35,037 nt of DNA from Paracoccaceae bacterium (GTDB lineage Bacteria > Pseudomonadota > Alphaproteobacteria > Rhodobacterales > Rhodobacteraceae), in contig JAAEZB010000020.1 in the NCBI GenBank assembly GCA_018223085.1, positions 1 through 35,037 on the forward strand, written 5' to 3'. Each line of letters starts with the position of its first letter. The first letter of the stretch is position 1. The notes beneath the pieces were generated by a model. It searched no databases, was not told the DNA's origin, and saw only the letters and a program-made list of their open reading frames with translations. The position numbers were made by a program, and so were the translations under genes. Of this stretch, positions 5,972 to 21,109 are shown piece by piece.

Positions 5972-7072
5972 ATGAATGTGCAGATGAGCGACAAGACCGA
6001 CGATCAGGCACGTCAGGAGGCGGCAGAGGCGCTTGCGCAGCTGCGGGCCTGGGCGATGAAGGCGACGCCGACGGAGATTGCCGAGCTGGACCCGGCGATT
6101 GCGCGGCTTCTGCCAGATCAGCCCTTGTCGAACTATCCCGACCTTAGCCGCGAGTATCCGAAAGATTTCGAGGTCGATGCCGCCTATCGCGCGACACTGC
6201 CCGATTTGCAGAACGGTCCGTCGAGCCTCATCAAGGGCGAGAAACAGCAGATCGAACATGTAGGGATTTCCAATTTCCGCCTGCCGATCCGGTTTCACAC
6301 CCGCGATAATGGCGACATCACGCTTGAAACAAGCGTTACCGGGTCGGTGAGCCTTGAGGCCGAGAAGAAGGGCATCAACATGTCCCGGATCATGCGGTCA
6401 TTTTACAAGCACGCGGAAAAAACCTTTAGTTTCGAGGTGATGGAGGCGGCGCTTAATGATTACGTGAGCGATCTGGAGAGCTTTGATGCACGTATCCAGA
6501 TGCGGTTTTCCTATCCGATGAAGGTGCCGTCGCTGCGGTCTGGGCTTGAGGGCTATCAGTATTACGATATCGCGCTTGAGAAGGTGCAGCGCGGTGGCGT
6601 GCTCTATAAGATCATGCACCTTGATTTCGTTTATTCTTCGACCTGCCCTTGTTCTTTGGAGCTTGCCGAACATGCGCGGCAGGTGCGTGGACAGCTTGCC
6701 ACGCCGCATTCACAGCGGTCGGTGGCGCGGATTTCTGTGGAGATCAAAGGTGAAGAATGCCTTTGGTTTGAAGATCTTATCGACCTTGCCCGCGCGGCGG
6801 TGCCGACCGAGACGCAAGTCATGGTCAAACGCGAGGACGAGCAGGCCTTTGCGGAATTGAACGCGGCAAACCCGATTTTTGTCGAGGATGCGGCGCGGCT
6901 TTTCTGTGAGCAGTTGAAGGCCGATCCGCGGGTTGGGGATTTCCGTGTGGTGGCAAGCCATCAGGAGAGTCTGCATAGCCATGATGCGGTATCTGTCCTG
7001 ACCGAAGGGCCGCTTTTTGACTCGGTCAGCCTTGATCCACGCTTGTTCCAGACCCTGTTCCACGTCGGGTAA
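5972..7072 (+). CDS. folE2: GTP cyclohydrolase I, type IB (FolE2)
   Basis: A 366-residue member of the GTP cyclohydrolase IB family. It makes 7,8-dihydroneopterin triphosphate from GTP, the first step of folate/pterin synthesis. Diagnostic stretches are EHVGISNFRLPI (95-106), the STCPCS motif with Cys225/Cys227 as candidate metal ligand, and TPHSQRS with His246. FolE2 tolerates metals other than zinc and often serves under zinc limitation, but no Zur box is visible upstream. AGGGCAGGG precedes the ATG at 5972; a second in-frame ATG at 5984 is possible. The enzyme supplies pterin precursor for folB/folP later in the window. Confidence 0.95.
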   Translation: MNVQMSDKTDDQARQEAAEALAQLRAWAMKATPTEIAELDPAIARLLPDQPLSNYPDLSREYPKDFEVDAAYRATLPDLQNGPSSLIKGEKQQIEHVGISNFRLPIRFHTRDNGDITLETSVTGSVSLEAEKKGINMSRIMRSFYKHAEKTFSFEVMEAALNDYVSDLESFDARIQMRFSYPMKVPSLRSGLEGYQYYDIALEKVQRGGVLYKIMHLDFVYSSTCPCSLELAEHARQVRGQLATPHSQRSVARISVEIKGEECLWFEDLIDLARAAVPTETQVMVKREDEQAFAELNAANPIFVEDAARLFCEQLKADPRVGDFRVVASHQESLHSHDAVSVLTEGPLFDSVSLDPRLFQTLFHVG

Positions 7073-7234: not shown

Positions 7235-8275
7235 TTATTCAGCGGGGCAGGCGTGGGTCGAGTAAACGTCCGATGTTGAAACCGCAGTGGCGTCATACCC
7301 TGTATGATCGGCGATGAGCCGTGACCAAGCCGATGCAAACTCGCGCTCACAGTCGACAGCACGGCTACTTTTCTGTTTCACCGTGTCGGCCTCAAGGGCG
7401 GTGGCAAGCGCCTGCGCCCAGCCCGCCTCTTCCTGACCGTAGACAAAGGTGCCATCGCGACCCGCGCTCATGGTCAGGCCGTCGACACCGGAGCAGAGCA
7501 CCGGGCGACCGGCCGCGCGCGCCTCAAGTGCCACGAGGCCGAAGGCTTCCCAGCGTGAGGGAATGGCGACGAGATCGACAGACTGCATAACGCGGTCTGG
7601 GTGGTCAGAGTGGCCGAAGAACCGAATGCGCGGATCATCGCAGGCCAGAGCGCGTAGCGCCGCGTCTTCCGGCCCGGCGCCATGAATATGCAGCGAGACA
7701 TCTTGGTTAGGCAGCCTGCGGAAAGCGCGGATCAGGATGTCAAAGCCCTTCTGGCGATGCAGCCGACCAATGGCACCGATTACGCGCGGTGTGCCGTCTG
7801 CGGGTGCCAGCGCGCGAAAATCCCGGAGATCCACCACCGGTGCGATCACGCGCAACGTTTGGGCGGCGGCGAGGCGGCGGCGTTTCATCCAATCTGCCTG
7901 TGCCTGGCTGACGGCGACAACGTTGTCGAATAGGGCAAGTGACGTCCGCAGCATTGTAAAGAAGCGCAGTTTAGAGGGAACGTTCAGTGCGGTGAATGCC
8001 TCGGTATAGCTATGCTCGACATGGACGAGCGGTTTGCCAGCATGACGGGCGCGGAACGCGATCAGCGACGGTAGCCTGCGCCAGTTGAGGCTCAGGTGTG
8101 AGACGATGATATCGGCGTCGCAGCTCGGGAGGGCGCCATTGCGGGATACGACGCGCAGGCTATGGCGTGCGGTGCGGTCCATGAGGGGGCAGGTCTGAAT
8201 ATGTTCGAGAACGCGGTTGACGCCGCCGGGCGTGGCATCGTCGACGAGGTGCAGGACATGGGGGAGATTGGGCAT
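7235..8275 (-). CDS. Glycosyltransferase family 4
   Basis: A 346-residue GT-B glycosyltransferase. It opens with VLHLVDDATPGGVNRVLEH, typical of the N-terminal domain. The C-terminal donor-binding domain begins at GAIGRLHRQKGFDIL, and the conserved EX7E motif appears as EAFGLVALE within PSRWEAFGLVALEARAAG. It should add one sugar to the growing lipid-linked oligosaccharide on the cytoplasmic face; the sugar is not predictable. It is the last gene of a four-gene minus-strand operon: only 24 bases separate it from the preceding GT2 gene. Confidence 0.9.
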   Translation of the reverse strand: MPNLPHVLHLVDDATPGGVNRVLEHIQTCPLMDRTARHSLRVVSRNGALPSCDADIIVSHLSLNWRRLPSLIAFRARHAGKPLVHVEHSYTEAFTALNVPSKLRFFTMLRTSLALFDNVVAVSQAQADWMKRRRLAAAQTLRVIAPVVDLRDFRALAPADGTPRVIGAIGRLHRQKGFDILIRAFRRLPNQDVSLHIHGAGPEDAALRALACDDPRIRFFGHSDHPDRVMQSVDLVAIPSRWEAFGLVALEARAAGRPVLCSGVDGLTMSAGRDGTFVYGQEEAGWAQALATALEADTVKQKSSRAVDCEREFASAWSRLIADHTGYDATAVSTSDVYSTHACPAE

Positions 8276-8299: not shown

Positions 8300-9286
8300 T
8301 CAGGAGCGGGCGGCGCGCAGCACCGTCCGGGCAAAATTCATCGGCATGTCGCCAAACCGGGCCGTGGCATGTGCCGCGAGCAGGGTTGTCAGGCTACGCA
8401 TCGGTTCTTCGAGGATCGGGCGGTGGGATTCGCCAAAGGCACGGCCAAGCAGGGCACAGGCGGCATCACCATCTCCGCTACTGACCGCGCGGCGGGCGAG
8501 GTAGCGCAACTGATATGCGCGGGCGGCGGTTTCGTGCTGGGCGAAAAAGTCGGGCGCTGTGGGGCGGAGTTTCGTTACCATCCGCTCCCATGAGGCGAGC
8601 TGTGCCTCGATATTCGCCGAGAGGCCGGTGGCATTGACGCGATATTCGGTGAGTAGCCCCGGCACGCCCTCGATGATCCAGTCAGTTTTCAAGCAAAGGC
8701 GTAGCCAGCATTCGATATCTTCGGATTGGCGGAAGGTTTCGTCGAAAATCCAGTCACGCTGTGTCTCGGAGGCGGGCCGCCAGGCAATGGCGTCGAGTGT
8801 CTCGCGGCGGATGACCGGGGCCGATCCGTTGCCAATAGGATTACGCTTGAAGACATGGGCGGACGTTACGCCGCGCAGCCGTGGGCGCTGGGCATGTCCG
8901 ATCCGGTTGCCAGCCTCGTCAATCAGGGCCGAGCCGGAATAGCTTAGCCCGACTTCCGGATTCGCGCGGAGGTGATTGATATGCGCGGCCAGCTTTTCGG
9001 GAATCCACAGATCATCCGCATCGCAAAATCCGATTACACTGCCACGTGCGGCAGCGATGCCACTGTTGCGTGCGCCCGCAAGGCCGCGGTTGAGCTGATG
9101 AACGACGCGGAAGCGCCTGTCCTTTGCGGCGTGGAGGTTTGCAATAGTGGCCGTATTGTCGATTGAGCCGTCGTCGACAATCACGACTTCGAAATCGCGG
9201 AAGCTCTGCGCGCTTAGTGAGGCAAGTGTCGCGGGCAGGGTGGCGGCGGCATTGTAGGATGGAACAACGATCGTAGCGTAGGGCAT
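8300..9286 (-). CDS. Glycosyltransferase family 2
   Basis: A 328-residue GT-A enzyme, starting at the ATG at 9286 (MPYATIVVPSYNAAATLPAT); a longer open frame to 9418 overlaps the next gene and lacks homology. Motifs are the VVPSYN nucleotide-binding start, EVVIVDDGSIDNT, the GLAGARNSGIAAARG segment and the DXD-like FCDADDLW. The ED of SEDIECWLRL is the likely catalytic base region. It shares its layout and several blocks (FCDADDLW, YR-N-GLSA, YLARRA near the end) with the next upstream gene, so the two are tandem paralogues. It probably extends the exopolysaccharide repeat unit. Confidence 0.9.
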   Translation of the reverse strand: MPYATIVVPSYNAAATLPATLASLSAQSFRDFEVVIVDDGSIDNTATIANLHAAKDRRFRVVHQLNRGLAGARNSGIAAARGSVIGFCDADDLWIPEKLAAHINHLRANPEVGLSYSGSALIDEAGNRIGHAQRPRLRGVTSAHVFKRNPIGNGSAPVIRRETLDAIAWRPASETQRDWIFDETFRQSEDIECWLRLCLKTDWIIEGVPGLLTEYRVNATGLSANIEAQLASWERMVTKLRPTAPDFFAQHETAARAYQLRYLARRAVSSGDGDAACALLGRAFGESHRPILEEPMRSLTTLLAAHATARFGDMPMNFARTVLRAARS

Positions 9287-9297
9287 CGGGATGATCC

Positions 9298-10221
9298 TTA
9301 GTTGGCGAACAGGTATTGGCGGGTTGTTTGGGGAAGACACGGCAGCAAGAGCGCAGCGAGCGCGATCAACACGCCCCGGCGCGCCGGAAGAAGGAAGGCC
9401 GTCGCATTTTGACGACATCCTTCAACAACCAGCTTTCGTGTGGTGGAGGCAGGCGCGCCGATGCGCAGTGCGCGGCGTGCGAGGTAGCGCAGGTAAATGG
9501 CTTCGGCGCGTGGATCGGGACGGTAGCCCAGCCGTGCAGCGGTCTTGAGCGCGGCCATCCGGCTGATGCGCATCTTGTCGAGATCGGCCGAGAGGCCGTT
9601 GTGGCTGAGGCGGTAGAGCACATGGGGGGCATGGATGCCGGTCAGGCGATGGCCTGCCCCAACGAGATGGATCAGGAACTCCAGATCCTCGTTATGCACG
9701 AGGTCCTCGCGAAAGCCGCCAAGGCTCTGGAATGTATCGCGGCGCAGCGACAGGTTTGACAGTGTGCAAACCGCGTTTTCGCCCATGAGCATGGGGACGG
9801 TCACATCGCCTTGGGGCACATGCGAGCATGTTTCAATATGGCTCGGATCTTGATGGAAAAACCCGACCTGCCCGAAAACAGCCTGCACATCGCCGCGCGA
9901 CAGGTAAAGCGCGACATCGCGCAGCTTGTCGCGTTGCCAGAGATCATCGGCATCGCAAAATGCGATGATCTCGCCATTTGCCTGTGTGAGGGCACCGTGA
10001 TTGCGGGCGGCGCTTGGTCCTTTGCGCGGGTTGCGCAGGAGTTTCAGGCGGGAATCCTTTTGCGCAAGTGTTTCTGCGACGCTCCAGCTGTTGTCGGTTG
10101 ACCCGTCCTCGACGAGGATTGCCTCCCAGTTGGTGAAGCTCTGCTCTTGCAGCGCGGAGATGGTTGCCGGAAGGGTTTCGGCGGCGTTGTAGACGGGAAT
10201 GACGACGGAAATCAGGGTCAT
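9298..10221 (-). CDS. Glycosyltransferase family 2
   Basis: A 307-residue GT-A transferase beginning MTLISVVIPVYNAAETLPAT. It has VEDGSTDNS, GPSAARNHGA, the DXD motif in FCDADDLW, and the catalytic-base region HNEDLEFLIHL. The start overlaps the stop of the flippase gene in an ATGA arrangement (10218-10221), which indicates translational coupling. It ends twelve bases before the ATG of the next GT2. The C-terminal block YLRYLARRAL is shared with that neighbour. It ends in a hydrophobic segment (VLIALAALLLPCLP) that could attach it to the membrane. Donor and acceptor are unknown. Confidence 0.9.
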   Translation of the reverse strand: MTLISVVIPVYNAAETLPATISALQEQSFTNWEAILVEDGSTDNSWSVAETLAQKDSRLKLLRNPRKGPSAARNHGALTQANGEIIAFCDADDLWQRDKLRDVALYLSRGDVQAVFGQVGFFHQDPSHIETCSHVPQGDVTVPMLMGENAVCTLSNLSLRRDTFQSLGGFREDLVHNEDLEFLIHLVGAGHRLTGIHAPHVLYRLSHNGLSADLDKMRISRMAALKTAARLGYRPDPRAEAIYLRYLARRALRIGAPASTTRKLVVEGCRQNATAFLLPARRGVLIALAALLLPCLPQTTRQYLFAN

Positions 10222-11450
10222 GACAACGCCCTCGCTTGGTTGGGGGAAAAGGCAAATTGCAGGGCCGGGCGCGACAACACGAGCATGCAGAGGCTGGCTG
10301 TTGCGAGGTAGCCCCACGCGATCGCGGTCAGGCCAAAGGGCGCGGTAAGCACGACATTCAGGGTGACGGCCGCCGTCAGCATGGCCGTGCCGCGCAGTTC
10401 GAGCAGCGGGCGGTTCTCGGCGCGGTGCCAGCCTGCGGTCGCTGTCCAGAGCATTGTCGGAATGGCCACAAGGCACAGGATCGAAACGGGCTCGGCCAGA
10501 CCGTCCCAGCCATCGCCCAGCAGAAATGGCACATACCATTGTGCCAGCAGGGCTTGCAGGAGGACGACCGGAGCGACGATCCCGATGGAAAGAGCAAACC
10601 CCTGACGCATCGCGGCAACGCGATCGGTATGCACGCACAGATGCGGGAACAATACGGCGGCGAAGGCGGCGGAAAAGGAGGTGGCGAGGCTTAGCCCGGC
10701 ATTGAAGGCCATGAAGTAGAGACCGAGGATTTCTGGCCCGAGTAGCGCGCCCACGATCAGTTTGTTGGCATGCAGGCGTGCGGTCATGATGACCTCGGTT
10801 CCGAGGATCGGCCAGCCGAAACGGATGAACGGGCGAATGGCGGTTTTGCCGCTTTCCGGCGCGCGGCGCCAAGGATGCAGGCGGCGCATTGCCAGCAGCC
10901 AGAAAGGCGCCGTCAAAAGCCGGGGCAGCACCAGCACCAGAGCCGAGGGCCATACCATCGCCAGAGCCACTGACATCAGGTTCGCCAGCACTGTCTGGCT
11001 ACCTGCAATGGCCGCGGTTTGCTTGAGTTTGCCCGCCCGCATGGCAAGGCCCGTCTGAACCAGCCCACCGGGCATGAACAGGTATTCACCCGCCAGAACG
11101 AGGATCAAAACAGCCATCGTCAGGTTGCCGGTTATACCCCAAACCGTGCCCGCGATGGCGCACTGAAGCGCGAATAAGCCGAGGCACCAGGCCCAGAACA
11201 GATCGTGCGCCCGGTTGCAGGTGGCTGCAAGCTCGGACGTTGGCGCGGCAATGATGCGCTGGCCTATTCCGTTTTGAGTCAATGACTTGAGCAGATCGCC
11301 CGTAGCCAACGCGGCGGCGGCTATGCCGATCTCGGCCACGTCCAGTGTCCGCGCCACGGCAATGACGACACCGAGGCGAGATAGCTTGGTTGCGATTTCA
11401 GACGCACCATAGGCCAGCAGATGGCCGAGCATTGAAGGAGGATTGGACAC
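10218..11450 (-). CDS. Wzx-like polysaccharide flippase (MATE/MOP superfamily)
   Basis: A 410-residue polytopic protein with about twelve membrane segments. Its opening (GASEIATKLSRLGVVIAVARTLDVAEIGIAAAA) matches oligosaccharide flippases of the MOP superfamily, which move undecaprenyl-linked repeat units to the periplasmic face. A second conserved stretch, PILGTEVIMTARLHANKLIVGALLG split around residue 220, is typical of the family's seventh helix. It heads a minus-strand operon with three glycosyltransferases and is divergent from wza. The frame starts at the ATG at 11450, 224 bases from the wza start. Confidence 0.85.
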   Translation of the reverse strand: MSNPPSMLGHLLAYGASEIATKLSRLGVVIAVARTLDVAEIGIAAAALATGDLLKSLTQNGIGQRIIAAPTSELAATCNRAHDLFWAWCLGLFALQCAIAGTVWGITGNLTMAVLILVLAGEYLFMPGGLVQTGLAMRAGKLKQTAAIAGSQTVLANLMSVALAMVWPSALVLVLPRLLTAPFWLLAMRRLHPWRRAPESGKTAIRPFIRFGWPILGTEVIMTARLHANKLIVGALLGPEILGLYFMAFNAGLSLATSFSAAFAAVLFPHLCVHTDRVAAMRQGFALSIGIVAPVVLLQALLAQWYVPFLLGDGWDGLAEPVSILCLVAIPTMLWTATAGWHRAENRPLLELRGTAMLTAAVTLNVVLTAPFGLTAIAWGYLATASLCMLVLSRPALQFAFSPNQARALS

Positions 11451-11549
11451 GGGCGGTAGCTTTCATCAGGATTTCAGCATTTTTACCCTCTGGCTCCGTC
11501 CTCTGTCTTCGACGCGGCAGGAGAGCGGCGCGCCGCGATGGGGTGGGGG

Positions 11550-11647
11550 CCTATCCTTTCGGGTCACGTTTTCACCCGACTGCCCGAATGGCACGCAGGG
11601 ACCCTCGCGATAAAAGGAATAGGCATGAACATGCCCGCGCGATAAAA
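11550..11647. promoter_or_regulatory. Divergent wzx/wza regulatory region with symmetric elements
   Basis: The 224-base divergent region contains several ordered elements: CCTATCCTTT at 11550-11559; direct repeats CGCGATAAAA at 11606-11615 and 11638-11647 (32 bases apart, about three helical turns); a perfect inverted repeat GGCATG-AA-CATGCC at 11622-11635 between them; and AATAGGCAT at 11618-11626. The CCTAT-type words recur before other genes of the locus. This pattern suggests operator sites, probably for a dedicated regulator; which one is not shown by the sequence. Confidence 0.45.
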
Positions 11648-11674
11648 ACAGGTATGTTCCTTTGAGGATGAATT

Positions 11675-12889
11675 ATGATTTCTGTTCGAACCCGCTTGCT
11701 GGGGTCATGTTTGGGCGTCGCCTTTATCGCCGGTTGCGGCGACGTGCCGCCGCCTGAAAACCTTGGGCCGGTTCAGAGTGGTGGTGCCTATCAGGCCCAG
11801 TACAGAACCCCGCCCAACAAGGCGGAGGCGGAGCCGTTCCTGATATCTGAGCGTATGAACGCAAAGAAGTGCCGGCCCAGTTTCAATACTGCGGGGAAGG
11901 GGGGCAATATCGTGGCGCAAGCGTTGCGTGGGGAACGCCTTTCGCGCAACGATCTGGTCGATATTCGCATTGCCGATGACGAGACCTTTAACGGGGATTA
12001 TGTGGTGACGCGGGATGGTGCGCTCAAACTGCCATTCCTGTCGCCGGTCCATGCCCAAGGCCGCACCACCGCAGACATTGAGGCACAGATTGCGCGCCTT
12101 CTCGTGCAAGAGGGCTTTTATGAAGAGGCGCCGCGCATTTCGGTCAGGCTTGCGGATTTTGCAAGTGTCCGCGTGGCGGTCTCTGGTGCGGTGTTCGAGC
12201 CTCATGCGGTCGAGATTGGCACCCGCGTTGCAGATGATATTGACCGCACCCGCCAAGAAGCGCTTGGGGCGTCCACCGAGGCGCGCAACCTGTCGGTCGC
12301 GTTGCGCGCAGCGGGCGGCGTTCGCCCGGATGCGGATCTTGCAGCCGTGGAGCTGCGCCGCAATGGCACGAAACATATTCTGGACATGCGTGGTGTGTTC
12401 GAGGGGCATAACCCGGTTGATGTGATGCTTCTGACGGGGGACGAAATCCGCGTGCCAACGCGCCAGTGTTTTCAGGATGATCTGATGCGTCCCAGTCCGA
12501 TCAGCCCGCCCGGAATCTCCCTATTCTTGTCGAACCTGACGCAGCCTGCGGCTGGCAACGCGCCGTCTGCGATTGGGCGCGGCGTGCGCGAGGTGCCTTA
12601 TGGCACGCGCTTTATGCAGGCTGTCGTAAACACCAACTGTGTCGGGGGCGCGCGCGCGACGAGCGCGAACCGCTCTGCGGTTCTGTTTACGCGCGATCCG
12701 ATCACCGGCGTTTCGACGGTCATTGAGCGCGATATCGAGGATATACTGCGCCGCGCGGATCGTGACGATTACGATCCTTACCTGCTGCCAGGCGATTCTA
12801 TTGCCTGTTACGACAGCAGCGTCACCAACTTTGCCGAAGTCGCCAAGATCGTAGGCGCGGTGGTTGCTGCGGGTGCCGTCTTCGACTGA
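11675..12889 (+). CDS. Wza-like polysaccharide export lipoprotein
   Basis: A 404-residue outer-membrane polysaccharide export protein. A lipoprotein signal peptide ends in the lipobox IAGC, so Cys21 would be lipidated. The Poly_export domain covers roughly residues 85-165 (DLVDIRIADDETFNGDYVV... and the following PFLSPVHAQGRTTADIEAQI block). SLBB-like repeats follow, containing VAVSGAVFEPHAVEIG and later MLLTGDEIRVP. It would form the export channel for the exopolysaccharide. The ATG has GAGG seven bases upstream. Its stop is three bases from that of the convergent kinase gene, leaving no room for a conventional terminator. Confidence 0.88.
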   Translation: MISVRTRLLGSCLGVAFIAGCGDVPPPENLGPVQSGGAYQAQYRTPPNKAEAEPFLISERMNAKKCRPSFNTAGKGGNIVAQALRGERLSRNDLVDIRIADDETFNGDYVVTRDGALKLPFLSPVHAQGRTTADIEAQIARLLVQEGFYEEAPRISVRLADFASVRVAVSGAVFEPHAVEIGTRVADDIDRTRQEALGASTEARNLSVALRAAGGVRPDADLAAVELRRNGTKHILDMRGVFEGHNPVDVMLLTGDEIRVPTRQCFQDDLMRPSPISPPGISLFLSNLTQPAAGNAPSAIGRGVREVPYGTRFMQAVVNTNCVGGARATSANRSAVLFTRDPITGVSTVIERDIEDILRRADRDDYDPYLLPGDSIACYDSSVTNFAEVAKIVGAVVAAGAVFD

Positions 12890-12892
12890 TCC

Positions 12893-15388
12893 TTAGGGCA
12901 AAGTCGGCTCTGGTGCGTCTTGCCAAACCTCTTTGGCGGCGTCGATTGCAAGCCTTAGCTGATCGCGGTCGCCAAGCTCTGCTGCCATTTCGACAGCAAC
13001 GAGGGCATCGCGCAGCTTTGGTTGGCCAAAGGCCGCAGCGCTGCCTGCCACCTTGTGTGCTTGCTCCGCGATTTCGGCCAGATCGTCCGGCTTTGTATCG
13101 AACCAAGCGAACAGGGCCACGGTTTCGGACAGGTAGCGATCAAGCAGGTCTTGCAGCGGATTTTCACGTGGCTGTGGCCGTGGGGTCTCGGCAGGGATGT
13201 GACGGCGCGATGTGAGTTGGTTGATGACGCGTTGAAGTTCGTTCTCGTCAAGCGGCTTGGGCAGGAAACCCGACATGCCCGCAGCGACGAAGCGGTCGCG
13301 GGCTTCCGGCAGCACATTGGCGGAGAGAGCAACGATCGGGACGTCCCGGCATGCTCCGTTGCCTTCGCGAATGGCACGCGTGGCGCCCAGACCGTCGAGC
13401 ACGGGCATCCGAATATCCATCAAGATCAGTTCGAAGCGATGCTTGTCTGCCTTGGCCACGGCCTCTTGTCCGTTGCGCGCCTCTGTCACGTGATGGCCGA
13501 GGCCGGATAGGATTTCCCTTGCCAGTTCGAGATTGATCTCGGTGTCCTCGACCAAGAGGATGTCGCAGCCGGTTACGGCATCTTCTATGAGTTGCGTCGT
13601 GTCCTGCTCTTCGGGCCCGTCTTCAATAACCAGCGGAAGTCGCACCCAGAAGACACTTCCTTCGCCCTCGGCACTTTCCACCCCGAGTTCGCCGCCCATG
13701 GTCTCGACGAAACGCCGCGCGACGCCAAGCCCGAGGCCGGTGCCGGATTGAATGCCGCTATCAGCCCGGTCGATGGTTTGAAAGTCTCCGAAGATCCGCT
13801 CTTGTTCGTTTTCGGGGATGCCGATGCCCGTGTCGATAACGCGAAGCTCTAATGTGCTGCCGGTCTGTTCGGCCTCGATGATGATCCGGCCATTATGGGT
13901 AAATTTGATCGCATTGCCGACAAGGTTCAGCAACACCTGCTGCAGGCGTGATGAGTCAATCCGCACCCACATCGCGGGTTTCCCGATCCAGCCCCATTGA
14001 ATGTGGCTTCCGTTCATTTCGACTGCGATGGCCTGCGAATCCACGATGTCCTGTAACAGCCGTCCGAGATGCACGACTTCTTCACGGGACTGCACGGCGC
14101 CAGCCTCGAACCGTGCGACGTCGAGCACGGCATCGACGTGATGCATCAGAACGCCGCCCGAGATGTTCATGTTGCGCACGTAGCGCCGTTGCTTCTGTGA
14201 AAGCGGGGTTTTCTCAAGAAGCGTCAGATTTCCCATAAGGCCGTTTAGCGGCGTGCGAATCTCGTGTGTCATCATGGCGAGGAATTCGGTCTTGGCTTTT
14301 TCGCCAGCCAGCGCCTTGTCGCGTGCTTCGACCAATTCGGTTTCGGCGGCCACGCTGTGCGAAATATCGCGCAGGAAGGCGATGACCATTTCGTCTTCTC
14401 CTGCCTGGGCCTTTTCCAATGCCAGTTCGACGGGGAAAACCTCACCATTGCGCCGCTTGGCCTCAAGCCGGACACGACCATGCCCGACCACCCTCTGTTC
14501 GCCGGAAGCACGCATGCGCTTCATTCCGGCGTCATGGGCGTCGCGAAAATGGTCCGGTATGATGATGTCCGCAATGTTTTTGCCGATTACTTCGTCCTGG
14601 GAATATCGAAAGATGCGTTCCGCTGATGGATTGAAGTTCAGGATACGTCCGTCGAGATCCGACACCACGACGGCGTCGAGGGATGTTTCCAGAATGGTGT
14701 TTAGGCGGGCATAGGCGTCGGCCAGTTCCTGACCGCGGATTTCGGTCTGATTGCCGACACGGCGGGTATAGACCAGTAGAACGATCAGAGCAAAAACGAG
14801 CGCTGTGGCGAGCAAGGCAAGGTGCAGCAGAGTGGAGGCGAAATTTTCCCGGCTTTGATCTGAGCGCTCGACGAAATATTGAAGACCGGCCGTGGCAGCA
14901 GTGCGCAGGAGCGGACGCATTTCCGCCGCCTGATTGCCCAGCGTTGGAAGCGCGGCGCGTAGTTCCGTGCGCGGCCCATCTATGATCGGGATGATCGCAT
15001 CGAGCCGGTTTTGAATTTCTTCGATAGAGTTTCCAAACGGCTCGATCTCGCGAAGGCTGCTATAGAACGTGCCGGTTCTCAAAGTCACGACACGGCTGTA
15101 AAATACGTCGAATTCGACGACGACGTCTTCAAGTGCGTCTGGGCTCGTGCTCGTGCGGGCGGTTTGCACCGCGTTGCGAAAGTCGAGAAATTCCACCTCC
15201 GCTTGGGAAAGAGCCCAGTGAACGTTGTCAGATCTTGCTGAGTTCAGGAACCGCAGTTCGCGCACGATTTCGGACAATAGGAACGTGATCGAGAGAACGC
15301 ATAGCAAACCTATCAGGACCAGAAGCATCTGGCTTCGGCGCAATCGCGAATTGTCTTGTGGTCGCCGTTCCGGTGAGGCGTCTTTCAT
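12893..15388 (-). CDS. Hybrid sensor histidine kinase (PAS-HisKA-HATPase-REC-HPt)
   Basis: An 831-residue membrane sensor. Its parts are: TM1 about 21-43; a helical periplasmic sensor region about 44-185; TM2 about 186-208; PAS about 228-340; HisKA with phosphorylated His375 in MMTHEIRTPLNG; HATPase_c with N box around Asn488/Asn492, DTGIGIP and SGTGLGLGVARR; REC with Asp658 in LILMDIRMPVLDG; and HPt with His778 in HKVAGSAAAFG. All phosphorelay residues are present, so it can pass phosphate to a separate response regulator, most simply the LuxR-type one at 17684. Its ATG overlaps the stop of the upstream SUOX-fold gene (TAATG), which implies a shared transcript and joint function. Confidence 0.93.
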   Translation of the reverse strand: MKDASPERRPQDNSRLRRSQMLLVLIGLLCVLSITFLLSEIVRELRFLNSARSDNVHWALSQAEVEFLDFRNAVQTARTSTSPDALEDVVVEFDVFYSRVVTLRTGTFYSSLREIEPFGNSIEEIQNRLDAIIPIIDGPRTELRAALPTLGNQAAEMRPLLRTAATAGLQYFVERSDQSRENFASTLLHLALLATALVFALIVLLVYTRRVGNQTEIRGQELADAYARLNTILETSLDAVVVSDLDGRILNFNPSAERIFRYSQDEVIGKNIADIIIPDHFRDAHDAGMKRMRASGEQRVVGHGRVRLEAKRRNGEVFPVELALEKAQAGEDEMVIAFLRDISHSVAAETELVEARDKALAGEKAKTEFLAMMTHEIRTPLNGLMGNLTLLEKTPLSQKQRRYVRNMNISGGVLMHHVDAVLDVARFEAGAVQSREEVVHLGRLLQDIVDSQAIAVEMNGSHIQWGWIGKPAMWVRIDSSRLQQVLLNLVGNAIKFTHNGRIIIEAEQTGSTLELRVIDTGIGIPENEQERIFGDFQTIDRADSGIQSGTGLGLGVARRFVETMGGELGVESAEGEGSVFWVRLPLVIEDGPEEQDTTQLIEDAVTGCDILLVEDTEINLELAREILSGLGHHVTEARNGQEAVAKADKHRFELILMDIRMPVLDGLGATRAIREGNGACRDVPIVALSANVLPEARDRFVAAGMSGFLPKPLDENELQRVINQLTSRRHIPAETPRPQPRENPLQDLLDRYLSETVALFAWFDTKPDDLAEIAEQAHKVAGSAAAFGQPKLRDALVAVEMAAELGDRDQLRLAIDAAKEVWQDAPEPTLP

Positions 15389-15897
15389 TATTTTATGCTT
15401 ATCCGATCAAGCTGCCATATGCTGCGAGAATAGATCACTTCTGTGCGGTAGTCACGGGAAGACGAGAAAGGGTAAATCACCCAAAGCGGCCCCTTATCGC
15501 GACGCGACAGCTGTTTTCCATCCATCTCATAGGCAATGATCGGACCGGTTTCGGTGGCATCTGATATAGGGATCGAGACGCTGTAATCGTTGATCGCCGT
15601 TGCGTTGATCGTGTCCCCCTCGGCACCAATGTATTCAAGCAGTGTTTTGAGGCGGACACCAATGAAGGTGTGGTTGTCGGGCGTCCAGATCGTTTCGGTT
15701 GTGATTACACTTTCGCCGAGTGCGCGAAGCATTTCGAGATCAAGTAACGCGGTTTCGCCCTCGTTTGTGTTCTCGATCTTGCCGGAGACCGTCAAGAGCA
15801 CAGGCCCTTCAGGCGATGGAAGGATTTCCGCGGTAGCAGGAAAAGCCCACAGGCTGACTGCGACGGCAACCGCAGAGATTGTGCGAAAGATGTTCAT
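15388..15897 (-). CDS. Secreted SUOX-fold (molybdopterin-binding-like) protein, PruR-like pterin sensor candidate
   Basis: A 169-residue protein with a signal peptide (residues 1-23, cleavage after ATA) followed by a single small oxidoreductase molybdopterin-binding-like domain. Recognisable stretches are LLTVSGKIENTNEG near the start, WTPDNHTFIGVRLKTLLEYIGA in the middle, and GPLWVIYPFSS near the end. The whole protein contains no cysteine, so the molybdenum-ligating Cys of sulfite-oxidase-like enzymes is absent and catalysis by that route is unlikely. Agrobacterium PruR, a periplasmic pterin-binding regulator of the membrane protein DcpA, belongs to this fold. The overlap with the kinase gene suggests this protein presents a pterin or similar ligand to the kinase's periplasmic domain. 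The ATG at 15897 has GGAG upstream and begins the signal peptide. Confidence 0.78.
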   Translation of the reverse strand: MNIFRTISAVAVAVSLWAFPATAEILPSPEGPVLLTVSGKIENTNEGETALLDLEMLRALGESVITTETIWTPDNHTFIGVRLKTLLEYIGAEGDTINATAINDYSVSIPISDATETGPIIAYEMDGKQLSRRDKGPLWVIYPFSSSRDYRTEVIYSRSIWQLDRISIK

Positions 15898-15994: not shown

Positions 15995-16012
15995 CCTATC
16001 CTTTTGGATAGG
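15995..16012. promoter_or_regulatory. Perfect inverted repeat CCTATCC-TTTT-GGATAGG
   Basis: A seven-base perfect inverted repeat with a four-base spacer. It begins immediately after the stop of the fused transferase gene and lies about 98 bases upstream of the SUOX-fold/kinase operon start. No T run follows in the minus-strand direction, which argues against a simple terminator. The half-site plus spacer, CCTATCCTTT, also occurs upstream of wza (11550-11559), so an operator role is plausible. Confidence 0.5.
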
Positions 16013-17398
16013 TCAGTAAGCGCCGCGCCCGGACAGGACCGCCCGCACCGTCAGGGCAAGGAGCATGCAGTCCAGCATCAGACTCTTGGACCGGACATAG
16101 GCGACATCCATGTCGATCATTTTGTCGAAACCGATATCGGCACGGCCCGACACTTGCCATAGACCGGTGATGCCGGGGCGGACGTTCAGCCGTTCCAGCG
16201 CCGCAACCGGGTAGGCGGAAACTTCGGATGGCAGAGCAGGGCGCGGGCCGACCACTGACATATCGCCAAGGAACACGTTCAAAATCTGTGGCAGCTCATC
16301 CACCGAATACCGGCGCAGGAATCTGCCGACGCGCGTGACACGCGGATCATGACGCGCTTTGAAACAGATGCCGTCGCGGTCGGATTGCGCCCGGATTGCG
16401 GCCAGCCGTTCCTCGGCGTTGGTGTGCATCGTGCGGAATTTCAGGATCGTAAACGGATGCCCGTCACGTCCGACACGGGTTTGCCGGAATAAGGCGGGTC
16501 CTTTGCTGTCCAGTCGGATAAGCGCGGCGACCAAAAGCAAGGCCGGTGCAAGGGCGACAAGGGCGAGGCCGCTTGTGACCACGTCGAAACAGCGCTTGGC
16601 ATTTGCGTCAGGTCCGGCGACCCGCAGAGCATGAGTCGTTGCGCGCACCATGAAGGTTGTATTGCCGATCAGATACCGTTTGGCGAGCCGCTGGGGTTCT
16701 TGCGCCAGACGCCAGAGCCATTCCATCCGCGCCGCGCGAACTGGCTTTGGTGCGCGGGTCACGTTCCCGGCAAGAAAATCAAACAATGCCCCGACCCCTA
16801 GAACCAAGCGCGGTTTGAGGTCCGGAAGATGTTTGTCGATCCATAGTTCCTGTTGTGGCACGCCCATCGCAACCAGCAGGATATCGGCACCAGACGCATT
16901 GATGCGCGCAATGGCGGCATCCTCATTGGCTGCCCCTCCATATCCATCCAGAGTGCCAGAGACCCGCAGACCGGGGATGGTTGTCTGTAGCTTCAGGGCT
17001 GCTTTTTCTGCTGTTCCGGGCGTTGCTCCAAACAGGAACACCGACAGGCCGCGCCGGGCTGCCTGATGTAGCAGAGCGGGTGTGAAATCGGTGCCATTCA
17101 GGTTTTCGGTCAGACCAGCACCCGTCATTCGCGCGGCCAGTTCAACGCCGATCCCGTCTGGCAGGATCATGTCGGCGCGAGCAAGCGCCGCGGCATAGTT
17201 TCGGTTGCGAGCGCGGATGTTGGCGCAATGGGCGTTGAGGAAGTAGGCACTGCGCACGGCCCCGGACAGCATGTGTTCCACGGTCTGTTCGGTCGTCGCA
17301 TCGACGACAGGCAGGCCGAGCACTGTTTTGCAGGCGGGGGACGGGGAGATGGGGCGCGTGGCGGTGTCAAAGCTCGTGAGGGACGGGTGTTTGGTCAT
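16013..17398 (-). CDS. Fused GT26 (WecG/TagA/CpsF) - phosphoglycosyltransferase (WcaJ/PglC-like)
   Basis: A 461-residue two-enzyme protein. Residues about 25-250 form a WecG/TagA/CpsF (GT26) domain, with [15 protein letters not shown] (Asp81 as candidate catalytic residue) and GVPQQELWI. Residues about 268-461 form a monotopic phosphoglycosyltransferase, with a membrane hairpin at about 271-293, KFRTM at 320-324, the catalytic Asp-Glu dyad D367-E368 in [17 protein letters not shown], and the terminal [13 protein letters not shown]. The PGT half would load a sugar-phosphate onto undecaprenyl phosphate; the GT26 half would add the second sugar. Fusion places steps one and two of repeat-unit assembly on one chain. 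It is transcribed divergently from the response regulator. Confidence 0.93.
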
Positions 17399-17610
17399 GG
17401 ATGCGGTCCTGGGTTCATGAGTGGCTTTCTACCTTCATGCCCCTATGACCGGCGCCATCGCAATTTCCCGGCGGGATGAGTGCGCAACGCATTCGTGATA
17501 CGCTGTGCCCGGATGTCCCAACGCTGCGCAAAAGACGGCAAAAATGGCGCGATGGGCTGGGTTCTGGTCCAAACGGATATATTGGCGAGACCTTTTCCCC
17601 GTTAATAAAA

Positions 17611-17656
17611 ATGCCTATTGCCCTAAATGTGCCCTAAATTTCGTTTAATGATAAAC
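17611..17656. promoter_or_regulatory. Direct and inverted repeats upstream of the LuxR-type regulator
   Basis: In the 285-base divergent region between the fused transferase and the response regulator, ATGCCTATT (17611-17619) is followed by TGCCCTAAAT twice (17619-17628 and 17630-17639), exactly eleven bases apart. Then comes an inverted repeat GTTTA-ATGA-TAAAC (17643-17656). ATGCCTATT is the reverse complement of AATAGGCAT upstream of wza. Helical-turn spacing suggests protein binding, possibly autoregulation. The rest of 17399-17610 shows nothing recognisable. Confidence 0.4.
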
Positions 17657-17683
17657 TGCGGTTTAACCAAGGATTGGCCTGAG

Positions 17684-18298
17684 ATGAGAGTTCTTATTGC
17701 TGACGACCATGATCTCCTGCGCGACACGCTGATTGCGTTTCTGAGCGCTGAGAATGATATGGAACTGGGAAGTGCTTCGAGCTTTGATGAGGCCAAGGAA
17801 CGTATTCGCGAGGACGCGCCCTACAATCTTATACTTCTAGATTACAAGATGCCGGGCATGAAGGGGCTGGAGAGCCTCTCCGAAGCGATTGCAATGGAAG
17901 GCGGTCAGCGGGTCGCACTGATCTCGGGGCAGGCCACGCGCGAAGTCGCGGAAGAGGCGCTTGGGCTCGGGGCTGCTGGGTTCGTGCCAAAGACCCTGCC
18001 GGCCAAATCTCTCGTGAATGCTGTCAAGTTCATGGCAATGGGAGAGCAATATGCGCCTGTCGACTTTATGAAAGCGCAGGACGAGGAAGAGCCGCACGCC
18101 ATGGCCGAGCGCCTTACCAAGCGTGAACTGGAGGTGCTAAAAGGTCTGACGGAAGGCAAGTCGAACAAGGCCATCGCCCGTGATCTCGACCTGACCGAAC
18201 CGACGATCAAGCTTCACATGAAGACGCTCTTTCGCAAGCTTGAGGTTAATAACCGCACGCAGGCGGCTATTGTGGCGCGCGACGTCGGCCTGTTCTGA
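17684..18298 (+). CDS. LuxR/NarL-family response regulator
   Basis: A 204-residue two-domain regulator. The receiver domain starts with RVLIADDHDLLRDTL and carries the phospho-acceptor Asp53 in LILLDYKMPG, with Lys in FVPKTLPAKS. The C-terminal LuxR helix-turn-helix (about 140-200) contains LTKRELEVLKGLTEGKSNKA and the recognition-helix region LTEPTIKLHMKTL. The ATG at 17684 is chosen because the receiver domain begins there; upstream in-frame ATGs (17648) would add a non-homologous tail. No cognate kinase gene is adjacent on this strand. The closest partner is the hybrid kinase at 12893-15388, so it is the likely output of that phosphorelay and a candidate regulator of the polysaccharide genes. 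Confidence 0.9.
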   Translation: MRVLIADDHDLLRDTLIAFLSAENDMELGSASSFDEAKERIREDAPYNLILLDYKMPGMKGLESLSEAIAMEGGQRVALISGQATREVAEEALGLGAAGFVPKTLPAKSLVNAVKFMAMGEQYAPVDFMKAQDEEEPHAMAERLTKRELEVLKGLTEGKSNKAIARDLDLTEPTIKLHMKTLFRKLEVNNRTQAAIVARDVGLF

Positions 18299-18327
18299 CG
18301 TCCACCCTGTCCAGAAGGATATAGCGC

Positions 18328-18394: not shown

Positions 18395-18416
18395 TCGGCG
18401 AAGGAGATCGCCGATG
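18395..18416 (+). promoter_or_regulatory. Hairpin presenting the ribosome-binding site of the wzz-like gene
   Basis: A perfect seven-base inverted repeat TCGGCGA (18395-18401) and TCGCCGA (18408-18414) encloses the six-base loop AGGAGA, which is the Shine-Dalgarno sequence. The last paired base is the A of the ATG start codon. The arrangement can expose or, with a bound protein, block the ribosome-binding site. A GGA in a hexaloop is also the form recognised by CsrA-type proteins, but whether this organism has one is unknown. Confidence 0.7.
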
Positions 18417-19856
18417 ACCACCCAAGACCTGGTAGCGACAGACATGCATGACGGGCGCTCCGCTTCGGGGGGCGGACGCAAGCTTATCCGCCGTGTGCTC
18501 ATTGGTGGCGCGCTGACGGACAGCAAGCGTATTCCGCGCTACGCGTGGATCTGTGCGCTTGGTTTGGCCGCCATCTGGGCGCCGATCACGGGCTACCTCA
18601 GGACGGCCGCGCCCAGCTTTGCCAGCCACATGTCTTTGATTCTGCCCGGTTCCGGGTCGGCCTCATCGGTCAACCTTGCCGAGATCGGGCAGGCATCAAG
18701 CCATGCGAATTCGGCCTTTTCCAGCAACGCGATCAGCCCGACGGAAACCTACAAGCGACTTCTGGCGGCTGATCGGGTTATCAGGGACGCGGCTGATGGT
18801 CTTGGTCTGCAGGCTAAGGACTTTGGTAAACCGCAGGTGAAGTTGGTGGATCAGACGGCGTTCATTCACGTCAAGATCACCGGTCCTGCCCCTGAGGCCG
18901 CACAGGCGCGTAACGCTGCGTTGCTGCGTGCGTTCTTTGACGAAATAGACCGCCTGCGGGGCGACGAAATGGACAGCCGCCAGACCGGCGGTCTTGACGC
19001 GATCAGGGAGTATCAGGCCTCGGTTGCCGCTACGCGTGTTGAGATCGAAAAGCTGCGCGAGGACACCGGGCTTTATTCGGTGGCGCAATACAATCGGCAG
19101 GTGGACGAGGTTGATCTCCTGCGTGCGCGGATTGATACCGCCAATGCAGAGTATGAACGAAGTGCCGCGGCCGTGGTCGGGCTGGAGGCACAGCTTGGGA
19201 CCGATTCAGCAACCGCCGCGCGTATATTGCGACTGAACGGTGATGGTGCCTATACGGCGCTGATTGACGCAATGGCGGAAGCGGAAACTGAACTTGCCCA
19301 AGCGCGTGCGCGGTTCGGCAAGCAGCATCCCGAGGTCATCAAGGCCTTGTCGGCGATGGAATCCGCCCGCGCCGAGGCCATGATCCGTGCCATTTCCCTG
19401 ACTGGTGATGCAGGCGCGTTAGAGCGATCCTTCGATGGCGCGCGAGACGCGCTTTTAACCGAGTTGGTGCGGCAGGACGCTGCGCGCGCTGGTTTGCTGG
19501 CGGAATTGGACGCATTGCGTAACCTCTTGTCGGTCCAGGCCGAACGGCTCGAAAAGCTTGCGCCGAAAGCGGCGCGGCTCGAAGACCTACAGCGGGACTT
19601 CAACGTAGCCGAAGCCGTTTTCGCATCGGCCATCGCACGCACCCAGTCCAGTAAGGCCGATGTCTTTGCGTCTTATCCCCTCGTGCAGGTTCTCGAAGAT
19701 CCGACCCTGCCCGAAGGTCCATCCTCTCCGCGCAAGAAGCTGGCCCTTGCCGCCGGCACTGCGGCGAGCCTTCTTCTCATCTTCGCGCTCGCACTTGCGT
19801 GGACCCGGCGCCCCTTGATCGAAAAGCTGATCTCCGAGAAAGGCCGCATGGCATGA
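18414..19856 (+). CDS. Wzz/GumC-like polysaccharide chain-length protein (no kinase domain)
   Basis: A 480-residue polysaccharide co-polymerase. TM1 lies at about 42-62 (RYAWICALGLAAIWAPITGY) and TM2 near 450-470 (KLALAAGTAASLLLIFALAL). Between them is a periplasmic domain with long coiled-coil stretches at about 185-390, including the family-typical ARARFGKQHPEVIKAL. There is no Walker A or tyrosine-rich tail after TM2, so it is not a fused tyrosine autokinase; no separate kinase gene lies in the window. It should control polymer length together with the Wzy-like protein encoded next, whose start codon overlaps this stop (ATGA, 19853-19856). Confidence 0.85.
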   Translation: MTTQDLVATDMHDGRSASGGGRKLIRRVLIGGALTDSKRIPRYAWICALGLAAIWAPITGYLRTAAPSFASHMSLILPGSGSASSVNLAEIGQASSHANSAFSSNAISPTETYKRLLAADRVIRDAADGLGLQAKDFGKPQVKLVDQTAFIHVKITGPAPEAAQARNAALLRAFFDEIDRLRGDEMDSRQTGGLDAIREYQASVAATRVEIEKLREDTGLYSVAQYNRQVDEVDLLRARIDTANAEYERSAAAVVGLEAQLGTDSATAARILRLNGDGAYTALIDAMAEAETELAQARARFGKQHPEVIKALSAMESARAEAMIRAISLTGDAGALERSFDGARDALLTELVRQDAARAGLLAELDALRNLLSVQAERLEKLAPKAARLEDLQRDFNVAEAVFASAIARTQSSKADVFASYPLVQVLEDPTLPEGPSSPRKKLALAAGTAASLLLIFALALAWTRRPLIEKLISEKGRMA

Positions 19857-21109
19857 GCGCCCCGCAGAACCCGGCCGAGGCTATGGTCTGGAAAACGATC
19901 CTGTGGACTTGGCCGTTCTATGCGTTTGGCGCGCTTTACGTGGTTGGGCCCGTTCTAGCGTGGCTTATGGCGGGGTTGGTGGCGCTGTCTTTATACTTGG
20001 GGCCAGCAATAAGGTCCGATCTGCGTGCCGCAGGGCCGCTTCCTCTGGTGGTCTGGGCGTGGATCATCGGGATGTTGGTTATGCTGGTGGCGCTGTGGAT
20101 TGGGCATATCGAGTGGGATCAGGGGATGAAGATGACGATCAAATCCTCCATCGGCTGGGCGAAAGGGTGGGCGCTTCTTGCGCTGTTTCCTTTGGCGGGA
20201 GCGGTCCTACCCATCCGGCGGGAGGTTTTGGTTCGGGCGCAATGTCGGCTTGGGTTCTGGACCTTGTGCATTGCGCCGGTTCTCCTTGTGGCTCCCTACC
20301 TTGGCTTGCCCGAACGGGTTTGGACCTCGCCGCTGAAGGCAGTGGGTGGGCCGGGCCCGGAATATTTCACGGTTTTTCTTTTTACCTTCGATCCGGCGTC
20401 ATGGACCCCCCGATGGCAGTTTTACGCGCCTTGGTCGCCTTTTGCGGCACTTTTGGGGGTGGTTATGGTGCTCTTTGCCTTGGAAGAGAAAGAGGGCCGT
20501 TGGCGCGCCGCCGGGATCGCAGCAGGCACGCTGATGATCCTTGCGTCGAAGTCCCGCATGGGGCTTGTGGGGCTTGTGGCCTGTACGGTCGGCCCCCGGT
20601 TGGTGCCGCTGGTGCTGCGCAGTTGGGCATGGGGCGGGTTGGCGGCCTTTACCGCATCGTTGGCCATCACGGGGCCTTGGTTTTTGGAGAAGATCGGTCT
20701 GGGCATTGATCAGTTCAAATCCGCCCGTGCAGACAGCACACGCGTTCGTGCCACCCTTCAGCGCATTGCCCGGGAGCGATGGCAGGAAGAGGCCCCTTGG
20801 TTCGGCCACGGCACGGTTCAGCCGGGGCCACACATTGTGGAGTATATGCCGATCGGCAGCCATCACACGTGGTTCGGTCTGTTGTTTGTTAAGGGGGTGG
20901 TCGGTCTTATGGCCTTGGCCGTGCCATTGATCTGGCAAACGGCGCTTGCCTTCAAGGATGCCGCTGTAGGACCGCGCGGACGCCTGCCGCTAGGTCTTTG
21001 TATGGTGATGGTTCTGCTCTCGTTCGGCGAGAACATCGAGATCGAAGCCTATCTGCTTTGGCCTGCGCTTTTGTGTCTTGGCATACATGCGCGTGAATGT
21101 AGCACCTGA
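19853..21109 (+). CDS. O-antigen ligase/Wzy-like polysaccharide polymerase
   Basis: A 418-residue polytopic membrane protein with ten or more hydrophobic segments. A large periplasmic-type loop (about 285-345) contains the WFGHG and HHTWFGLLFVKGVVG features of the Wzy_C/O-antigen-ligase family; ASKSRMGLVGL near residue 225 is also typical. It probably polymerises or ligates repeat units at the periplasmic face. The ATG at 19853 overlaps the wzz-like stop codon (ATGA) and is preferred over 19799, which lies inside that gene. Primary sequence conservation in this family is low, so polymerase versus ligase cannot be decided. Confidence 0.75.
   Translation: MSAPQNPAEAMVWKTILWTWPFYAFGALYVVGPVLAWLMAGLVALSLYLGPAIRSDLRAAGPLPLVVWAWIIGMLVMLVALWIGHIEWDQGMKMTIKSSIGWAKGWALLALFPLAGAVLPIRREVLVRAQCRLGFWTLCIAPVLLVAPYLGLPERVWTSPLKAVGGPGPEYFTVFLFTFDPASWTPRWQFYAPWSPFAALLGVVMVLFALEEKEGRWRAAGIAAGTLMILASKSRMGLVGLVACTVGPRLVPLVLRSWAWGGLAAFTASLAITGPWFLEKIGLGIDQFKSARADSTRVRATLQRIARERWQEEAPWFGHGTVQPGPHIVEYMPIGSHHTWFGLLFVKGVVGLMALAVPLIWQTALAFKDAAVGPRGRLPLGLCMVMVLLSFGENIEIEAYLLWPALLCLGIHARECST

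Follow-up and report, generated by a model that had tools for sequence, protein, structure and literature searches.

In Agrobacterium tumefaciens, pterin-loaded PruR promotes the degradation of cyclic di-GMP (c-di-GMP) by DcpA, so that attachment is limited (PMC13259868). PruR interacts with the periplasmic part of DcpA, its pterin pocket includes residues N102, Y104 and W160, a Trp replaces the Cys of SUOX proteins, and the pocket is truncated (PMC13259868). A 2026 review has named a class PruR-DTB, with Ruegeria pomeroyi as the example (PMC13259868, section 8). According to the available part of this review, a two-gene operon encodes a secreted SUOX-fold PruR of about 170 amino acids, without the Cys for the molybdenum cofactor and with a pocket Trp/Tyr, and a TorS/BaeS-like kinase with a DcpA-type periplasmic domain, a WX7E motif and optional PAS and REC domains; PruR of this class is described as a tetrahydropterin-binding protein that makes contact with its kinase at the periplasmic domain (PMC13259868). 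Here we describe a PruR-kinase pair in a 35,037-nucleotide stretch from a Paracoccaceae bacterium (positions 1 to 35,037 of contig JAAEZB010000020.1, assembly GCA_018223085.1; hereafter the window, G000:C67:1-35037), and propose that it probably controls a neighboring polysaccharide cluster through a linked response regulator and an 18-bp palindrome.

The PruR-kinase pair as such is not new, because the review already defines PruR-DTB; it is the only paper we found that joins PruR, pterin and a histidine kinase (PMC13259868). What is new here is the output half, i.e. the regulator, the palindrome and the target promoters; regulators may already be mentioned in the primary paper behind the review. 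No dedicated regulator, operator or polysaccharide regulon for PruR-DTB was found in a literature search that left the review's primary paper and most subscription papers outside its reach.

The small protein of the window is PruR. Its 169-residue open reading frame (ORF) was assigned to Oxidored_molyb by Pfam (7e-9) and matched solved PruR chains from Klebsiella (7rkb, 5e-35), Agrobacterium (7kos, 1.4e-32) and Vibrio (two chains). The predicted structure (pLDDT 92) aligned with A. fabrum PruR (7kos_B) at a TM score of 0.95 by target and 0.83 by query, and with sulfite oxidases at about 0.6 by query. The N-terminus forms a hydrophobic helix, suggesting that the protein is exported. Residues N103, Y105 and W161, paired by motif and spacing, correspond to the pocket residues N102, Y104 and W160 of the A. 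tumefaciens protein. Each of them was invariant in all 86 loci, out of 107 non-redundant ones, in which PruR, kinase and regulator were all of useful length (the set used for residue conservation throughout). W71 is invariant as well. Neither the family assignment nor the degree of residue conservation can reasonably be put down to chance.

The ORF contains no Cys and hence lacks the Cys ligand to molybdenum that is typical of SUOX molybdoenzymes. The initial annotation, which had correctly described a Cys-free SUOX-fold protein, took this absence as the telling feature. Cys accounts for 1.03% of residues in 19 ORFs of the window, which gives P ∼ 0.17 for a Cys-free 169-mer, and 24 of 41 PruR sequences are Cys-free; absence of Cys alone is therefore unremarkable. 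The diagnostic features are the Asn/Tyr/Trp of the pterin pocket and the WX7E motif of the kinase.

The kinase was matched by Pfam to PAS, HisKA, HATPase_c, REC and, at the border of significance, Hpt (24.8 bits, cut-off 24.6), in agreement with the REC-HPt hybrid kinase of the initial annotation. A helical periplasmic domain (residues ∼41-190) is followed by PAS (228-342) and HATPase (478-586) domains, and the phosphoacceptors of HisKA (H375), REC (D658) and HPt (H778) are each conserved in 86/86 loci. Because an HPt domain with an invariant His follows REC, the His-Asp-His chain is complete. The WX7E motif reads W58-X7-E66, with W58 in 86/86 loci and position 66 being Glu in 76, Asp in 8 and Ala in 2, so that the periplasmic domain is of the DcpA type as judged by this motif. 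Residues 1-215 were predicted to be all-helical (pLDDT 90.5) and had no match in the PDB at an E-value of 0.001 or better. The best NCBIfam model was TorS, whose score of 350.9 bits is below its cut-off of 676.5. GGDEF and EAL, the output domains of the PruR-DcpA system, were absent from the Pfam matches of the kinase. Taken together, the locus has the features of PruR-DTB: a SUOX-fold PruR of about 170 amino acids, a partner gene directly downstream, WX7E and a TorS/BaeS-like kinase.

In order to place the pair in a wider context, we used 80 named loci from a profile scan, 71 of them with full context. Most of the 80 loci come from genera of Rhodobacteraceae and relatives; Notoacmeibacter, Oricola and Rhodobium orientis belong to Hyphomicrobiales. 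Two records (L102, L155) are titled Enemella evansiae and Nocardioides marinus, which are actinobacteria, yet their loci are Rhodobacteraceae-like; the titles are possibly wrong or the records mixed. PruR matches (E-value threshold 10-3) were present in 21 of 25 genus genomes and 142 of 248 family genomes, with a single match in the assembly of the window (3.0 Mb, 145 contigs, 89% complete).

The kinase gene adjoins pruR downstream in 67 of the 71 full-context loci. The stop codon of pruR and the start of the kinase gene overlap in the TAATG sequence noted in the initial annotation, but as a conserved trait this overlap was rejected: with the chosen start codons it was found in just 13 of 115 relatives, the other 102 having a gap. 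A gene for the protein adenylyltransferase SelO takes the place of the kinase after PruR in L140, L147 and L157 (∼10514-12082, plus strand). No kinase was matched in L150, where an exact palindrome precedes pruR, and in L079 (10316-12163, plus strand) the kinase frame is short compared with relatives (615 amino acids).

The constancy of the pair also bears on the question whether PruR is a sensor subunit at all. The Pfam domain name Oxidored_molyb, the 3 of 80 loci with SelO and without kinase, and L150 would suit a redox enzyme or chaperone whose pairing with a kinase is incidental. We consider this highly improbable in view of the 67 of 71 loci with an adjoining kinase and of the exchange of the SUOX Cys for Trp, the truncated pocket and the periplasmic interaction of PruR with DcpA in A. 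tumefaciens (PMC13259868).

Divergently from pruR and the kinase gene, and upstream of them, lies a gene for a NarL/LuxR-type response regulator, the start of which, as relatives suggest, may be nearer residue 20 (∼17684). The phosphoacceptor D72 was conserved in 86/86 loci. A homologue was present in 36 of 40 relatives' regions compared, and a divergent regulator gene lay within 4 kb of PruR in 56 of the 71 full-context loci. Among these 56 loci, which all have the kinase, 22 contained none of eight polysaccharide cluster genes, 29 contained seven or eight, and 5 were in between; the regulator therefore tracks the PruR-kinase pair and not merely the cluster. Among the matches listed, which were not chosen by context, 91 of 150 PruR matches were within 4 kb of a regulator match, and of the 100 genomes with listed matches for both proteins, 72 had their best regulator match next to PruR. 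For four loci of Hyphomicrobiales, the sole regulator match of the genome (E-value threshold 10-30) was located, by coordinates, 1.4-1.8 kb past the end of the compared stretch. The regulator is a conserved third gene of the PruR-kinase module, also at loci where no polysaccharide genes were found, and is described here as new.

The proposed operator was detected by counting inverted repeats in non-identical regions upstream of the regulator gene and between wzx and wza. TATCC-N4-GGATA occurred in 26 of 87 and 21 of 42 such regions, respectively, compared to a maximum of 2 in ten shuffles each. The full 18-bp palindrome is CCTATCC-N4-GGATAGG, and the copy upstream of pruR is the only exact one in the assembly. 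Across the 107 non-redundant loci, palindromes with up to three mismatches were scored within 300 bp upstream of gene starts. They were found for pruR in 88/106, the regulator gene in 59/88, wzc in 38/39, wza in 35/42, wzx in 36/43 and wecG in 30/42 cases. The counts are not independent, because a single region lies upstream of both wza and wzx, and in clusters the same applies to wecG and the regulator gene. The DNA preceding the kinase start, most of it coding for PruR, had no palindrome (0/102), nor did the interiors of the kinase (0/102), regulator (0/88) and wza (0/42) genes; shuffles gave at most 3.2%. The distance to the start was nearly fixed, with a median of 77 bp for pruR (interquartile range 75-79) and 90 bp for wzc (90-91). 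In the 248 family genomes, the exact palindrome occurred 43 times in 31 genomes, at least 31 of these copies within 10 kb of PruR, and the reversed control did not occur. An intrinsic terminator of wecG was rejected as an explanation: the palindrome is outside the 12 terminators listed, is not followed by a T-run, and recurs in divergent promoter regions. We propose that the palindrome, newly described here, is an operator that relatives have conserved in front of pruR, wzc, wza/wzx and the gene for the regulator.

Polysaccharide clusters that are separated from PruR provide the best argument that the palindrome may function as a target and is not simply carried along with the locus. Among 26 hand-picked genomes without wza at the PruR locus, four had a Wza orthologue (E-value threshold 10-60) elsewhere. 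Of 30 further genomes, also picked by hand and lacking a PruR match, one had such an orthologue, in a cluster that has retained the regulator. In all four separated clusters, the palindrome was present at both divergent promoter regions (8/8 sites), with 1, 2, 2 and 1 mismatches at wza/wzx and 0, 3, 3 and 1 at wzc/wecG, the two sites with three mismatches being marginal. No further site with up to three mismatches was found across 20 kb. Since shuffles give 0.5-1.1 sites per 20 kb, the placement of the sites outweighs their number.

The linked regulator is the best candidate for the protein that would bind the palindrome. For residue 192 in its recognition helix, the canonical operator was present at pruR in 58 of the 71 loci with Pro, in 2 of the 16 loci with Val and not in the one locus with Ala. 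Among 20 regulator homologues encoded away from PruR, the four with an upstream palindrome each stand beside a kinase match. A palindrome of two heptamers fits a dimeric NarL-type regulator. A site upstream of every regulator homologue was considered and rejected, given the 4 of 20 away from PruR. Displaced homologues in L242, L245 and L246 have a site (up to two mismatches) elsewhere in the DNA compared for them.

Several observations weigh against the proposed operator and its assignment to the regulator. In the window, only the sites at pruR and wzc exceed shuffles, and those at wza/wzx (107 bp upstream of wza, reached by 7% of shuffles) and at the regulator gene do not. With up to two mismatches, the genome itself contains 12 places compared to 14 for the reversed control; looser sites therefore carry no genome-wide signal, and only near-exact or well-placed ones count. 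The association of residue 192 with operator type (Fisher test, 3e-7) comes from a statistic that ignores phylogeny. Pairwise distances of the regulator receiver correlate with those of the kinase domains (r 0.70-0.80; kinase domains among themselves 0.64-0.80), which could be explained by gene linkage alone, and the correlation is lower for PruR and the kinase domains (r 0.51-0.63). The L231 cluster (G028:C509:65001-85000), with a regulator and no PruR match, has a site with one mismatch upstream of wzc, where the regulator gene ends, and none at wza/wzx. In L249, a displaced regulator homologue beside a strong kinase match lacks the site, and 16 of the 20 homologues away from PruR have none upstream. 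Of 19 loci whose compared DNA contains no regulator, 8 still have a palindrome at pruR, three of the 8 being of the Hyphomicrobiales type with the regulator farther off. Finally, 12 of the 43 exact copies are not near a listed PruR match, two of them in genomes with no PruR match.

The last three counts, in particular, would be expected if the palindrome were the site of another transcription factor for polysaccharide and pruR genes, with the PruR kinase signaling elsewhere and the NarL-type regulator having other targets. We regard this explanation as unlikely, since the operator type follows residue 192, the four displaced regulators with a site each adjoin a kinase match, the sole regulator match of four Hyphomicrobiales genomes lies just beyond the compared stretch, and the two-heptamer symmetry suits a dimeric NarL-type protein.

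The off-locus exact copies did not define a wider regulon: 10 of the 12 were examined, and apart from L205, L199 and L204 they had no common theme. In L205, the palindrome is flanked by wzc and wecG, which here belong to a separate cluster. By eye, the sites at position 1501 of L199 and L204 are ∼820-850 bp from the same hydrolase-like gene, that of L208 (also at 1501) is 388 bp upstream of a gene for a large secreted repeat-type protein, and that of L210 (1501; genome without PruR match) is 120 bp upstream of a gene for a rhodanese-like secreted protein.

Together, the above observations make it probable that PruR, the kinase and the regulator form a pterin-responsive phosphorelay with a regulon of its own that controls polysaccharide. 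By homology, exported PruR would bind a reduced pterin and, loaded or empty, dock on the kinase at its helical periplasmic domain, in which WX7E is conserved. Docking would set the balance of kinase and phosphatase activities; phosphate would pass along the conserved residues from H375 to D658 and H778 and then, as the conserved linkage suggests, to D72 of the regulator. Phosphorylated regulator would bind the palindromes that precede its own gene, the pruR-kinase pair, wzc and wza/wzx, and binding to those promoters would place the Wza/Wzx-type polysaccharide and the module's own genes under its control. Pterin may lower rather than raise polysaccharide, by analogy with the pterin pathway of A. 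tumefaciens, which limits attachment. Of the pterin-sensing phosphorelay suggested in the initial annotation, the PruR-type protein and a kinase with phosphorelay parts were borne out; the pairing already belonged to a named class, and the regulator and operator had been missed. Polysaccharide output, first guessed from location, is likely, and these two turn it into a testable regulon.

Hybrid kinases may branch, and HPt might feed other acceptors, such as a second regulator or a c-di-GMP enzyme, with polysaccharide controlled mainly post-transcriptionally, as with DcpA; the A. tumefaciens precedent does act via c-di-GMP (PMC13259868). Given the Pfam matches of the kinase, without GGDEF or EAL, and the conservation of a linked regulator and palindrome, such a route appears quite improbable as the principal one. 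For the phosphorelay in its broadest form, we lean towards a pterin regulon of Rhodobacteraceae and some Hyphomicrobiales in which an 18-bp operator directly switches an adhesive-polysaccharide cluster, both in cis and in trans.

Features of the window that bear on this proposal (positions in the window;., no strand)
Feature	Position	Strand	Basis
PruR, SUOX-fold pterin-binding family protein, 169 aa	15388..15897	-	Pfam, PDB chain matches, predicted structure
DTB-type hybrid kinase, 831 aa	12893..15388	-	Pfam, NCBIfam, residue conservation, predicted structure
TAATG stop/start overlap of pruR and kinase gene	15386..15390	-	sequence
NarL/LuxR-type response regulator, proposed cognate output, D72, helix-turn-helix from residue 163	17627..18298	+	Pfam, NCBIfam, relatives
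Proposed operator, exact CCTATCC-TTTT-GGATAGG, 97 bp upstream of chosen pruR ATG, abuts wecG stop	15995..16012	.	
Operator-like site, 3 mismatches, 90 bp upstream of wzc (the relatives' median); reached by 0.4% of shuffles	18306..18323	.	
Degenerate operator-like site in wzx/wza divergent region, 4 mismatches, left half perfect	11550..11567	.	
Very degenerate operator-like site in wecG/regulator divergent region, 5 mismatches, alone not significant	17564..17581	.	
WecG/TagA glycosyltransferase fused to initiating sugar-phosphate transferase (Bac_transf)	16013..17398	-	Pfam, NCBIfam
Wza-type polysaccharide export protein	11675..12889	+	Pfam
Wzc-like chain-length determinant, weak (GNVR and TIGR03007 both under cut-off)	18414..19856	+	Pfam, NCBIfam
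Conserved cluster gene, no Pfam/NCBIfam match at thresholds used	19799..21109	+	relatives
Wzx-type flippase	10218..11450	-	
Family-2 glycosyltransferase, domain residues 249-408	9298..10953	-	
Family-2 glycosyltransferase	8300..9418	-	
Family-4 glycosyltransferase	7235..8275	-	

As the initial annotation had noted, the pair is set in a polysaccharide locus: wza, wzx, wecG, wzc-like and glycosyltransferase genes flank it. With at least six of the eight cluster genes as the threshold for presence, the cluster was found in 32 of the 71 full-context loci. The listed start of the larger family-2 glycosyltransferase is probably too far upstream, since the ORF overlaps wzx. The conserved gene that follows wzc (64-85% identity) accompanies the cluster in 34 of the 80 loci and is possibly its missing polymerase.

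Genes related to pterin synthesis are also present. A FolE2-type GTP cyclohydrolase, the first step of the pathway, is encoded at 5972-7072 (plus strand), ∼160 bp from the last glycosyltransferase gene, and is the only FolE2 match in the assembly. Membership of folE2 in the module was rejected, with no match at 40 or 80 relatives' loci, whose compared flanks reach barely that far. Near the other end of the contig (33785-34831, plus strand), an ORF has a FolB (dihydroneopterin aldolase) domain above the Pfam cut-off and below that of TIGR00525. A mere candidate for PruA is encoded on another contig (C13:2912-3646; NF006597, 354 bits, cut-off 281); the next-best named models are pteridine reductases, under their cut-offs. 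With folE2, the FolB-domain ORF and a candidate pteridine reductase, reduced pterins could therefore be home-made.

With regulator, palindrome and target promoters named, the output of PruR-DTB becomes directly testable. If the proposal is true, folate-type metabolism would be linked to attachment via transcription, and surface-colonizing bacteria could decide on sticking by reading pterins, which are redox-active metabolites.

BvgS/BvgA, EvgS/EvgA and BarA/UvrY are tripartite hybrid kinase systems with a His-Asp-His-Asp chain that ends in a LuxR-type regulator; in the system proposed here, by contrast, sensing would use a separate secreted pterin-binding subunit. In Ruegeria pomeroyi DSS-3 (WP_011045932.1), as in the window, PruR is followed by a kinase with a DcpA-type periplasmic domain, WX7E, PAS, HisKA, HATPase and REC (PMC13259868). 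The Ruegeria kinase, as given in a figure legend of the review (PMC13259868), ends with REC, whereas the loci compared here add HPt. The available part of the review (PMC13259868) names no HPt, cognate regulator, operator or target for PruR-DTB, all four of which are proposed here. Similarity to the loci for unipolar polysaccharide (UPP) and holdfast, with uppC (Wza) and uppE (initiating transferase), is by domain only and concerns Wza-type export and an initiating sugar transferase (PMC12727192, PMC4018554); in A. tumefaciens, PruR controls UPP. The PruR-DcpA pair of that species shares with the window the PruR fold and pocket residues and a partner encoded by the next gene, and its output is adhesive polysaccharide (UPP, cellulose) (PMC13259868). 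Its partner is a GGDEF-EAL c-di-GMP enzyme (PMC13259868), whereas here it is a phosphorelay kinase with a DNA-binding regulator. If our proposal is correct, two unrelated routes would connect the same pterin sensor with surface polysaccharide, one via c-di-GMP in Agrobacterium and the other via transcription in the bacteria studied here.

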